NCBI RefSeq assembly: GCF_011299615.1
Contig: NZ_CP049861.1
Location: 1,364,001-1,428,000, forward strand
Origin: Erysipelothrix sp. HDW6C
GTDB taxonomy: Bacteria > Bacillota_I > Bacilli_A > Erysipelotrichales > Erysipelotrichaceae
Reading direction: 5' to 3'
Length of the DNA stretch: 64,000 nucleotides
The notes beneath the pieces were generated by a model. It saw nothing but the letters and a program-made list of their open reading frames with translations, made no database searches and had not been told where the DNA came from. Positions 15,155 to 18,498 of the stretch are shown here, piece after piece; positions within the stretch are counted from its first letter, which is position 1, and the number at the start of each line of letters is the position of its first letter. A program made the position numbers and the translations under genes.

Positions 15155-16999
15155 ATGAATAAGAAGAGTTCACCGCATATTAAAACAACAATGTATAATA
15201 TACCAAAATATGTCTTGACAGTCATACTTGCAGTAGCAATTTTCTTTTCGAGTCCATTAGCAATATTCTCTAACGAGGATGTCTATATTGAAGAAATTAC
15301 AGATAATGGAGAAAAAAATAGTAAAGAAGAGATAGTTCAGTCTCAAGAAGCATTGGAGGCATCCTTTTTAGAACCGGTATACAAAGACGATATTGAATTG
15401 GAAAATGCAACTGACGATATATATGCATTTGGCGGAGATAACCCAGATGCATTGCGAGCTGTTGCTGAGGCGAGAGCAGTATCATCGGGATTTATTCAAT
15501 TTAACTTAAGCGACAAAGAATTAGTGTATATCTATGAAACTTCAACATCCTCGGTCAGGTATCGATATGTATCGGGAAGTGTTTTTTTCTCAGGTGTTAT
15601 TCCTTTTTATGACCGTGCAAATGGCAGATACAAAATAACAATCTCTGGAATGGAAGGGTGGGTAAATACGGAAGACTTTCTTGAATATACCCCTGCTCAG
15701 ACTAAGGGGCCGAGTCACTACGAAGTGAAAAATGGAAACCTTTATCACTATATCAGCTACGGTGCTGTTGGAGGCAAGGGTTATGGAGAAATTCTTAACG
15801 GACCAGCACCAAGCTATTTAAAGGCAGGATCACTCTATTATTCCTCGGATGGGCATTACTTTTACAGTAATGTTAACACAATGATTTCTGACTATGCGTC
15901 AGGTTCGAGAACTAACTCAGTAAATCAGAGTTATCCATTTTATAATTATTATCAATACTTGTCATATCGAACCAAATCAAATATTACTGCAGCGCAATTG
16001 GATTCTTATATTAAAAATCAGAAAGGATTTACCCAAGTTGTTCCGAAGGGGCAAGATGCTGCGAAGAACCAATCAATGTTCGTTGGCGCTCCTGCATCAT
16101 TTTTTGCATATGGGACAAAATTCGGCCATAATCCCTTGATTTCTTTTGGGATTGCAATTAATGAAAGTGGTTGGGGGAGAAGTTGGCTTGCGATAAATAA
16201 AAATAATATGTTTGGCCATAGCGCGTACGATTCTAAGCCGAATGAAGCTGATGATTACCCTACAGTAGATTTCGGAATTAAAGTTCACAGTACTTACTTT
16301 CTAAATTGGTTCTATTTAGATTTTGATTCTCCTGTATCACGCGGAGGATACCTTGGTGACAAGTCCTCAGGAATTAACGTTTCATACGCATCTGATCCGC
16401 ATTGGGGTGAAAAAGCAGCGGCCCATTATTATGCACTAGATAAGCACTTTGGCAGTATTGATTACAACAAACAAACGATTGGAATTACACTCAATGCATC
16501 GCAAGTGAATCTTAGAAAGGAACCGAGCACTGCATCAGCGAAGGTTTATAATACGGAAATTTTAGGGCAGTCTGTTCTAATTTTAGGAAGCACAACTGGA
16601 GAATCAATCAATGGCAACAATATCTGGTATAAAATTGCTTCCGATCCACTTTTAGATAGTAATCGTAACTTATTGCCGTGGATAACTGGTGGTGCAAATC
16701 GAGAAGCGAATTACAACTATGATAATAGTTATGTCTACATTCATTCATCAAATGTAAGAATTGTAGCAGGTAAGGATGCTCCAAAGCCACCAGTAACTGC
16801 TCTACCGCGCGGAGATATTAATGGTGATGGTAAAGTCACAGTTGTTGATCTTGCCATGATGAAAAGTCACATGATGGGCGTCAGAACATTGGCAGGTGAT
16901 CAATTTAAGCGAGCCGATATTAATGGTGATGGTAAAATAACTGTGGTTGACTTAGCAATGCTAAAAAGCCATATGATGGGTATAAAACCACTTAACTAG
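15155..16999 (+). CDS. Secreted glucosaminidase with SH3b and dockerin
   Basis: This secreted peptidoglycan hydrolase has 614 residues. An N-terminal hydrophobic segment at about residues 18-40 acts as signal peptide or anchor. Roughly residues 280-420 form a glucosaminidase (GH73-like) domain, with FGIAINESGWGRSWLAI (probable catalytic Glu near 337) and NKNNMFGHSAYD. About 445-540 is an SH3b-type wall-binding region starting GITLNASQVNLRKEPSTAS. Residues 553-614 are a type I-like dockerin: two 12-residue calcium loops, DINGDGKVTVVD and DINGDGKITVVD, each followed by a LAM(M/L)KSHMMG helix. The next gene, 8 bp downstream, encodes a surface protein with a cohesin/Ig-like N-terminus, so the dockerin partner may be its neighbour. 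A GGGAGG site precedes the start. Confidence 0.85.
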   Translation: MNKKSSPHIKTTMYNIPKYVLTVILAVAIFFSSPLAIFSNEDVYIEEITDNGEKNSKEEIVQSQEALEASFLEPVYKDDIELENATDDIYAFGGDNPDALRAVAEARAVSSGFIQFNLSDKELVYIYETSTSSVRYRYVSGSVFFSGVIPFYDRANGRYKITISGMEGWVNTEDFLEYTPAQTKGPSHYEVKNGNLYHYISYGAVGGKGYGEILNGPAPSYLKAGSLYYSSDGHYFYSNVNTMISDYASGSRTNSVNQSYPFYNYYQYLSYRTKSNITAAQLDSYIKNQKGFTQVVPKGQDAAKNQSMFVGAPASFFAYGTKFGHNPLISFGIAINESGWGRSWLAINKNNMFGHSAYDSKPNEADDYPTVDFGIKVHSTYFLNWFYLDFDSPVSRGGYLGDKSSGINVSYASDPHWGEKAAAHYYALDKHFGSIDYNKQTIGITLNASQVNLRKEPSTASAKVYNTEILGQSVLILGSTTGESINGNNIWYKIASDPLLDSNRNLLPWITGGANREANYNYDNSYVYIHSSNVRIVAGKDAPKPPVTALPRGDINGDGKVTVVDLAMMKSHMMGVRTLAGDQFKRADINGDGKITVVDLAMLKSHMMGIKPLN

Positions 17000-17007
17000 G
17001 AGACATA

Positions 17008-18462
17008 ATGAAGAGAATAACTAACATAACAATAACATTTTTATTAATGCTAACGATGGTACTACCCATTTATGCTGCATCTGGCTACGTTTCAATTTCT
17101 GCGCCAGGTACTGTATCGCCTGGAGAATCATTTACAGTAACAATTAGCTACAGTGCATCTGAGGTCTCAGTTTATGATTTTTCAATTGGAGGAAGCGGAG
17201 CAATTTCTGGTGGTACACACCATACTGCTGATGTCGCTGGATCAACGAGTTTAACGATGACTGCGGGTTCTGAAGGAACTGGTTATATTTCGGTTAGTGG
17301 TGAAGGCGCTACTTTATCCGATTATTCACCATTTGGACTCAGTGCTTCAGCAACAGTTAATGTTGTTGCACCTAACACAGGTGGTAACTCTGGTGGAGAA
17401 AATCCTGGCGGTGGAAATACAGGTGGCACTGGCACTCCATCAGGAGCACAAGAAACAGCTGCTGAACGTGAGGAACGCGAGACAGCTGAACGTGAAGCAG
17501 CTGAAAAAGAAGAAAAAGAAACTGCTCAAAAAACGCCGTTAATTAAGGAAATTGATATTGTTTCTACAGCTGACAAACGACTTGGCGATGTATTAACGAA
17601 GATAGTTCCTGAGTTTGATACTTTTGAGTACGCATATAAACTTCCAAAACAAGTTGATAAGTTTTTACTTGAGATTCGAGGAGTCGAGGAAGATGTAGTT
17701 CTTACATACGACAAAAACTACGAATATAAAGATGGTGATAAGGTGCTCAAAGAGATTATAGTTCGTGCTGTCAAAGGTGAGATTACGCAAGAATTTAAGT
17801 TGAATGTTACCAAAGATGAAACGCCGGATATTATTCGTGATGTTGAGGGTGTTAAAAAGAAAGTCTATGATGACGATGGGCTGGATGCTTATATGAAGAC
17901 GTTAGGTTTTGCTCGCAAAGACTATAAAGAAGGAGAAATTCCATCATTCTTTTATGAAAAGGGTGCAGTGAAAATGCAACTTCTTGTTGATGATCAAAAG
18001 AATGCATCATGGCATACACTCACCAAAGAAAATGCATTAAGCAAGGAAGTCATTTTAATTAGTGATGAGAAGTTAACGCCGTTTGTAATTACTGGGGCAC
18101 CAGAGGAAAGTGCTGTGCTTACATTACAAGATGAGAAATACACATCTAAGGAAATTGTAATTGATCCAAAACTTCAAGCTGTAGATTCAACCATGAAATT
18201 TAAGAATAATTATGATGGTTGGGCATTTGATGATGGTGAAGTTGTTTATGGAATGACTGTTGATGGTGTAGAGGGTCCTTATTACAAGGATGCTAAGAAC
18301 GTAGTGAAGACAGCAGTTGTCGGATTTGATAAAGTTAACCAATCATATAAACTGTGGGCATATGTTGCAACTGGGTTGCTCGTTGTCGTAAGTGGTTCTT
18401 TTGGAAGTTATATCTTCATCGATCAAAAACGCAAGAAAGCGACATTGTTACCTAAAGAATAA
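17008..18462 (+). CDS. Membrane-anchored cohesin/Ig-like surface protein
   Basis: This 484-residue protein has a signal peptide (MKRITNITITFLLMLTMVLPIYAA). Residues about 26-118 are a beta-rich, Ser/Gly/Thr-rich domain beginning GYVSISAPGTVSPGESFTVT, which resembles cohesin or Ig-like folds; at about 90 residues it is shorter than classical cohesins. A Gly/Asn linker (GGNSGGENPGGGNTGG) and a Glu/Arg/Ala helical stretch follow. About 180-270 looks like a cadherin-like beta-sandwich domain (KEIDIVSTADKRLGDVL). A C-terminal TM helix (LWAYVATGLLVVVSGSFGSYIF) with a short basic tail anchors it. No LPXTG motif is present. It lies 8 bp after the dockerin-bearing glucosaminidase and is co-transcribed. 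Its role as scaffold is an inference. Confidence 0.65.
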   Translation: MKRITNITITFLLMLTMVLPIYAASGYVSISAPGTVSPGESFTVTISYSASEVSVYDFSIGGSGAISGGTHHTADVAGSTSLTMTAGSEGTGYISVSGEGATLSDYSPFGLSASATVNVVAPNTGGNSGGENPGGGNTGGTGTPSGAQETAAEREERETAEREAAEKEEKETAQKTPLIKEIDIVSTADKRLGDVLTKIVPEFDTFEYAYKLPKQVDKFLLEIRGVEEDVVLTYDKNYEYKDGDKVLKEIIVRAVKGEITQEFKLNVTKDETPDIIRDVEGVKKKVYDDDGLDAYMKTLGFARKDYKEGEIPSFFYEKGAVKMQLLVDDQKNASWHTLTKENALSKEVILISDEKLTPFVITGAPEESAVLTLQDEKYTSKEIVIDPKLQAVDSTMKFKNNYDGWAFDDGEVVYGMTVDGVEGPYYKDAKNVVKTAVVGFDKVNQSYKLWAYVATGLLVVVSGSFGSYIFIDQKRKKATLLPKE

Positions 18463-18467
18463 TTCTA

Positions 18468-18498
18468 AAAAGAGACGCTCCTGAAAAGAGCGTCTTTT
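18468..18498 (+). terminator. Terminator of the surface-protein operon
   Basis: AGACGCTC and GAGCGTCT form an 8-bp stem followed by TTTTCG. Confidence 0.75.

Follow-up and report, generated by a model that had tools for sequence, protein, structure and literature searches.

Within the 64,000-nucleotide stretch of Erysipelothrix sp. HDW6C analysed here (assembly GCF_011299615.1, contig NZ_CP049861.1, positions 1,364,001 to 1,428,000; hereafter the window), a gene for a secreted cell-wall hydrolase ending in a dockerin is followed directly by a gene for a membrane-anchored protein, which we call the scaffold. The locus raises the question of whether the second protein holds the first at the cell surface, as a preliminary description of the window had proposed. 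On the sequence comparisons set out below, we consider it likely that the scaffold tethers the hydrolase through a cohesin-like N-terminal domain (the N-domain). The elements on which this reading turns are the following.

15155-16999, forward strand: secreted glucosaminidase (GH73) with an SH3 module and a C-terminal dockerin, 614 aa (open reading frame and Pfam)
16811-16975, forward strand: type I dockerin, residues 553-607 (Pfam PF00404, Dockerin_1, E 1.2e-15)
17008-18462, forward strand: membrane-anchored scaffold protein, 484 aa (open reading frame, AlphaFold2 model and homologues)
17080-17364, forward strand: N-terminal 7-strand Ig-like domain, residues 25-119, the proposed dockerin receptor (model, structural matches, co-replacement and coupled loss)

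The dockerin and the scaffold

The glucosaminidase had been described as ending in two complete calcium-loop repeats forming a type I-like dockerin, and this is confirmed: the loops DINGDGKVTVVD (16814-16849) and DINGDGKITVVD (16916-16951) lie within its final 62 residues, and the module scores 57.8 bits against the curated PF00404 cut-off of 22.9, which places it in that family by sequence. Its recognition positions 10-11 read VV in repeat 1 and again in repeat 2, as in a two-loop dockerin. Across 44 dockerins of the family about 20 different dipeptides occupy these positions; the dipeptide is the same in both repeats in 30 of them, and at least one position is shared in 43. A dual binding mode is established for type I dockerins, and such symmetry is expected if one partner faces both repeats.

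The next gene product had been read as a secreted, transmembrane-anchored protein with a separate beta domain and a glycine linker. The open reading frame and the AlphaFold2 model (mean predicted local distance difference test, pLDDT, 84.5) agree with that reading, giving in order a signal peptide, the N-terminal beta domain, a Gly/charged linker, a helix, two further beta domains and a C-terminal transmembrane helix.

Gene order across relatives

We sampled 80 hydrolase relatives from named genomes, counting only those with enough downstream sequence and re-reading individually two loci that each carry a second hydrolase (L090 and L099). The scaffold gene follows directly in 36/36 cases where the hydrolase has a dockerin, whereas it does so in 1/33 where none is present. 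The sole exception is a Sellimonas locus (L141:6734-8317), at which a hydrolase with no detected dockerin is followed by a borderline cohesin protein. In a class-wide draw of 31 further genomes, a dockerin ends at most 400 nt upstream of a scaffold with an N-domain in 34 of 36 instances. The arrangement of a dockerin and this next gene is met again in dozens of genomes, which chance would not explain.

At one locus in this family (L056:3412-5297, genome G006) the hydrolase is spread over two overlapping frames, through a natural frameshift or a sequencing error; the dockerin part and the scaffold are open.

Joint replacement and joint loss

Aligned at the DNA level, E. anatis and E. aquatica show about 90% identity along the stalk of the scaffold, the flanking DNA and the greater part of the catalytic region, and identity drops to 40-70% across the dockerin and the N-domain. 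The same pattern is seen at the protein level in Massilimicrobiota genomes, in Traorella genomes and in one uncultured Bacilli group (L093/L108, L064/L066, and L135 or L136/L143), with identities of 0.90-0.94 for the hydrolase and 0.85-0.91 for the rest of the scaffold, against 0.31-0.41 for the dockerin and 0.29-0.34 for the N-domain. Over 40 pairs, dockerin similarity is correlated with N-domain similarity after hydrolase and stalk similarity are removed (partial Mantel r 0.217; 2 of 2000 permutations).

Co-replacement alone is no proof of binding: the two modules are adjacent on the DNA, the swap tracts run unbroken across the junction between the two genes, and a single recombination tract could therefore move both with no interaction needed. 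Dockerin and N-domain might accordingly have separate ligands, that of the N-domain being a wall glycan or a host or other surface protein, and covary simply as neighbours in one recombination tract. We hold this alternative to be improbable, given first of all what happens when the hydrolase is lost. Two genomes from two genera (G041 and G042) have neither the hydrolase nor any dockerin; they retain a scaffold homologue from which precisely the N-domain is missing, the signal peptide joining the second domain directly, and the G042 copy adjoins metA as in relatives. Together with the additional dockerin enzymes described next, this coupled loss is more telling than co-replacement.

Further dockerin proteins

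In G040 a GH25 lysozyme carries a dockerin 79% identical to that of its own glucosaminidase, and 57% identical to the dockerin of the orthologous GH25 protein in G045. Between these genomes the GH25 and glucosaminidase dockerins have changed together, with conserved genes (dgt and metA) filling the roughly 3 kb between the two loci, which argues against covariation through linkage without binding. The GH25 loci might have served as unlinked evidence; we downgraded them, as the GH25 and glucosaminidase genes stand about 3 kb apart in G040 and contig ends suggest the same order in G045. A second counter-example is an M6-peptidase dockerin in G065, which is 87% identical to that of its own glucosaminidase and 45% identical to a dockerin that has a separate scaffold; a dockerin of the same type thus stands beside the same scaffold. 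Four genomes with two scaffolds (G048, G057, G065 and G072) have two distinct dockerin types, each next to its own scaffold.

Several dockerin proteins were noted in passing. At L162:4588-7497 an M6-family peptidase gene stands directly after the scaffold gene, with a dockerin of the neighbouring glucosaminidase's type. Four loci (L070, L163, L166 and L074) encode secreted metallo-beta-lactamase-fold proteins with a dockerin type of their own, followed by a scaffold copy of their own, and in G073 (L173:1-11217) about five consecutive secreted proteins all end in one dockerin type and are followed by a small transmembrane protein. Giant proteins, 2,445 to 5,495 aa long, in which dockerins accompany dozens of cadherin-like domains, are encoded by E. 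anatis, E. aquatica and E. inopinata.

G003:C11:205909-228447, G007:C22 and G012:C1:1996130-2016645: giant cadherin-like/dockerin proteins

The HDW6C genome has only two dockerin proteins, the hydrolase and a 2399-aa protein with GH31, F5/8C and fn3 domains and a second, unrelated dockerin (L002; G000:C1:611350), in which we noticed by eye a cohesin-like stretch after the dockerin. This stretch, or the cohesins of other community members, could in principle be the partner of the hydrolase dockerin, an explanation to which we give very little weight. Pfam calls no cohesin in the stretch, the dockerin of the GH31 protein is quite different in type, and its gene does not lie beside the hydrolase, as the scaffold gene does in nearly all relatives. 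The preliminary description would have been contradicted by a different clear cohesin elsewhere in the genome; the Pfam scan of the genome gave no cohesin over the cut-off, and there is no second N-domain-like place.

Fold and family of the N-domain

That the scaffold domain is itself a cohesin, as had been suggested, is not borne out as a family assignment: it is a separate N-terminal beta domain, and its predicted fold is a 7-strand, generic Ig-like sandwich. The cohesin fold is a nine-strand jelly roll. Two Clostridium perfringens cohesins, 2w1n and 2jh2, match the N-domain with Z scores of 11.1 and 11.0 (root-mean-square deviation 2.2, 18% identity) and are the sole cohesins among its best structural matches. 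A Foldseek search with the whole scaffold gave generic sandwich matches, which realignment of 1000 chains placed on residues 25-123, and hmmsearch of the PDB with an N-domain profile likewise yielded generic matches, Ig-like and lectin, with the cellulosomal cohesins 6kg8 and 6kgc only at E 0.23-0.25. Weak Big/BatD-type matches were obtained for N-domains in the Pfam scan of 39 of them; with the generic fold, these suit a domain that has some ligand other than the dockerin.

The bridge from the N-domain to cohesins is positional, because the same slot in the gene pair holds a Pfam cohesin in two relatives, the only ones to reach the PF00963 cut-off, and this again speaks against mere linkage. 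In a Ruminococcus metagenome-assembled genome (L139) the pair encodes a cohesin (7.8e-8; phmmer 3.9e-4 against PDB 1g1k) followed by a cadherin-like second domain, and in the Erysipelothrix genome G008 (L081) a dockerin protein is followed by a scaffold with a Pfam cohesin (1.1e-8). We therefore call the N-domain cohesin-like in position, and perhaps also in fold.

An unrelated Ig or Big fold with no predicted interface had been named as grounds for abandoning the pairing. The fold did come out Ig-like; as to the interface, a chain fusing dockerin and N-domain (the E. anatis genes read through the stop, modelled as an interface probe) gave only a predicted template modelling score (pTM) of 0.66. 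This exceeds our own estimate of about 0.4-0.5 for two independently floating domains, so that some inter-domain confidence is likely in the model.

Weighing the proposed tether

Besides the shared recombination tract, several observations weigh against a tether through a cohesin-like domain. The Pfam cohesin model PF00963 matches neither the window scaffold nor any of the 39 N-domains, and because this hidden Markov model defines the family we rejected the name cohesin for the N-domain. Complement MG, PKD and CARDB domains tie with the C. perfringens cohesins, so that the fold is not specific to cohesins. Comparison of profiles between the N-domain and a 5-sequence cohesin alignment gave 80% probability over the first 30 columns only (scaffold domains two and three gave <1%). 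The partial Mantel effect is modest, and the best neighbour of the window dockerin (E. anatis, 0.77) ranks just 9 by N-domain similarity. The GH25 locus is only about 3 kb from the glucosaminidase pair, and two scaffolds, G339:C3 and G269, have no detected adjacent dockerin. Set against these points, adjacency, co-replacement, coupled loss and the dockerin types of further enzymes lend the proposed tethering of the wall hydrolase to a membrane scaffold strong support at the level of sequence.

Proposed mechanism

From the observed anatomy, gene order, co-replacement, coupled loss and repeat symmetry we infer that the two proteins bind physically, in a calcium-dependent manner and with a role in wall turnover. 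The glucosaminidase would be exported, its type I dockerin folding with calcium outside the cell and docking on the Ig-like, or cohesin-like, N-domain of the membrane post. The stalk, consisting of the flexible linker, the helix, two beta domains and the transmembrane helix, would project the enzyme and set its cutting distance from the membrane, so that wall cutting would stay near the membrane and the new wall and the enzyme would not be released. In relatives the receptor probably serves the GH25 lysozyme and the M6 peptidase as well, making the protein a one-socket scaffold; with several wall- or protein-cutting enzymes sharing one socket, occupancy could follow their relative expression. 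Socket specificity appears to vary by species and to be swapped as a matched dockerin/N-domain cassette. Such matched-pair replacement implies that specificity may be under pressure to change, possible sources of which are the avoidance of cross-docking with neighbours and phages that exploit the socket.

Dockerins in prophages

Small proteins of 102-119 aa that consist of an N-terminal transmembrane segment and a dockerin occur in prophages, two of them in E. anatis and one in HDW6A, and on one further viral contig.

L078:2158-2469 and L079:2183-2494: prophage transmembrane-dockerin proteins, E. anatis
L077:3138-3494: prophage transmembrane-dockerin protein, HDW6A
L181:5249-5554: transmembrane-dockerin protein, viral contig

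Their genes adjoin phage genes (Erf recombinase, regulators and a repressor). For those with a known host, the dockerin type of that host is the best match of the first repeat, alone or in a tie. As a lead, these proteins are possible decoys or plugs for the host scaffold. A more far-reaching conjecture, which we put forward tentatively and think rather unlikely, is that the socket is a zone of conflict: phage pressure on this surface-exposed site would drive dockerin and N-domain to be replaced again and again as a matched pair, and the dockerins of Erysipelothrix prophages would occupy the host socket, either to exclude superinfecting phages or to control the wall hydrolase.

Remaining features of the locus

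The pair comprises the following further elements.

16106-16438, forward strand: glucosaminidase catalytic domain, residues 318-428 (Pfam PF01832, 7.7e-13)
16499-16753, forward strand: SH3_3-like module, residues 449-533 (Pfam 7.3e-6; 26.5 bits, slightly below the cut-off of 27)
16997-17010, forward strand: intergenic junction of stop TAG, overlapping GGAG ribosome-binding site and start ATG, with an 8 nt gap (sequence)
17365-17532, forward strand: disordered Gly/charged linker, then long helix, residues 120-175 (pLDDT 34-54 at 121-150; helix 151-175)
17533-17823, forward strand: second beta domain, residues 176-272 (model)
17824-18315, forward strand: third, membrane-proximal beta domain, residues 273-436 (model)
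18340-18444, forward strand: C-terminal transmembrane helix, residues 445-479, and basic cytoplasmic tail (model helix and sequence)
18473-18495, no strand assigned: terminator-like hairpin at the end of the two-gene unit (consensus scan; reverse-strand call only)

The catalytic domain scores 49.6 bits against a Pfam cut-off of 30.2, which places the hydrolase in GH73, and Glu337, within the motif NESGWG of the catalytic region, is invariant across 18 relatives. Pfam recognises the second scaffold domain as Cadherin-like PF12733 in five relatives (L139, L099, L109, L093 and L145); NCBIfam gave no name for the hydrolase or the scaffold at its cut-off. The short gap between the two reading frames suggests a bicistronic mRNA. 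The genome is a single contig of 2.36 Mb, and the closest homologues of the hydrolase come from E. anatis, E. aquatica, E. tonsillarum and E. inopinata. In Erysipelothrix the pair is flanked by a hemolysin-III-like gene and, on the other side, by a series of genes; in the window this series extends to what we take, from their sequence, to be murF, ddl and alr.

Significance and comparison with known systems

This looks like a widespread, undescribed tether for wall hydrolases, shared by Erysipelothrix and many gut bacteria related to it, whose socket escapes standard family searches. Searches of open-licence full texts turned up work on cellulosomes, the amylosome, the mucinolysome and designer systems, and none on a dockerin-bearing wall hydrolase that pairs, in this lineage, with a receptor on the membrane; such an absence is no proof of novelty. 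If the tether is real, cohesin-dockerin assembly would extend from the digestion of food to the remodelling of a bacterium's own cell wall, and the membrane retention of some autolysins in Erysipelotrichia and related Bacilli would be explained. It would also provide many pairs that have been swapped in nature and are probably orthogonal, built on a small receptor that current family models miss, making it testable how docking specificity shifts without loss of affinity, and why; the prophage dockerins would suggest that phages exploit the interaction.

The type I pairs of cellulosomes, as in C. thermocellum and C. cellulolyticum, are alike in their two-loop dockerin with symmetric recognition positions, in species-specific pairing, and in a receptor beta-sandwich carried on a surface-attached protein; the Ruminococcus cohesin is related to 1g1k. 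They differ in that their substrate is plant fibre, whereas the enzyme here acts on the cell's own wall, and in their S-layer homology (SLH) or sortase anchor, in place of which we find a transmembrane anchor and a single receptor domain outside PF00963. A cellulosome is recognised by a multi-cohesin scaffoldin, a carbohydrate-binding module and plant polysaccharidases; the HDW6C genome has one receptor-type domain, and the Pfam scan of the scaffold gave no carbohydrate-binding module.

The amylosome of Ruminococcus bromii, described in parts of PMC5814915, is a cohesin-dockerin assembly of a gut bacterium, with GH13 starch enzymes and four scaffoldins. It resembles the present pair in lying outside cellulose degradation, but those parts of the paper describe no dockerin-bearing wall hydrolase. 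The C. perfringens modules 2w1n and 2jh2 are similar in structure to the N-domain, though tied with non-cohesin folds. These cohesin-like modules sit in secreted carbohydrate-active enzymes, namely non-cellulosomal glycoside hydrolases, whereas the N-domain belongs to a membrane post and faces, as its proposed partner, a wall hydrolase. Autolysins are kept on the cell by wall-binding modules (SH3, LysM, GW, choline-binding and S-layer associated); where these bind wall polymers or the S-layer, the hydrolase considered here would be held by a protein-protein tether to a membrane protein.
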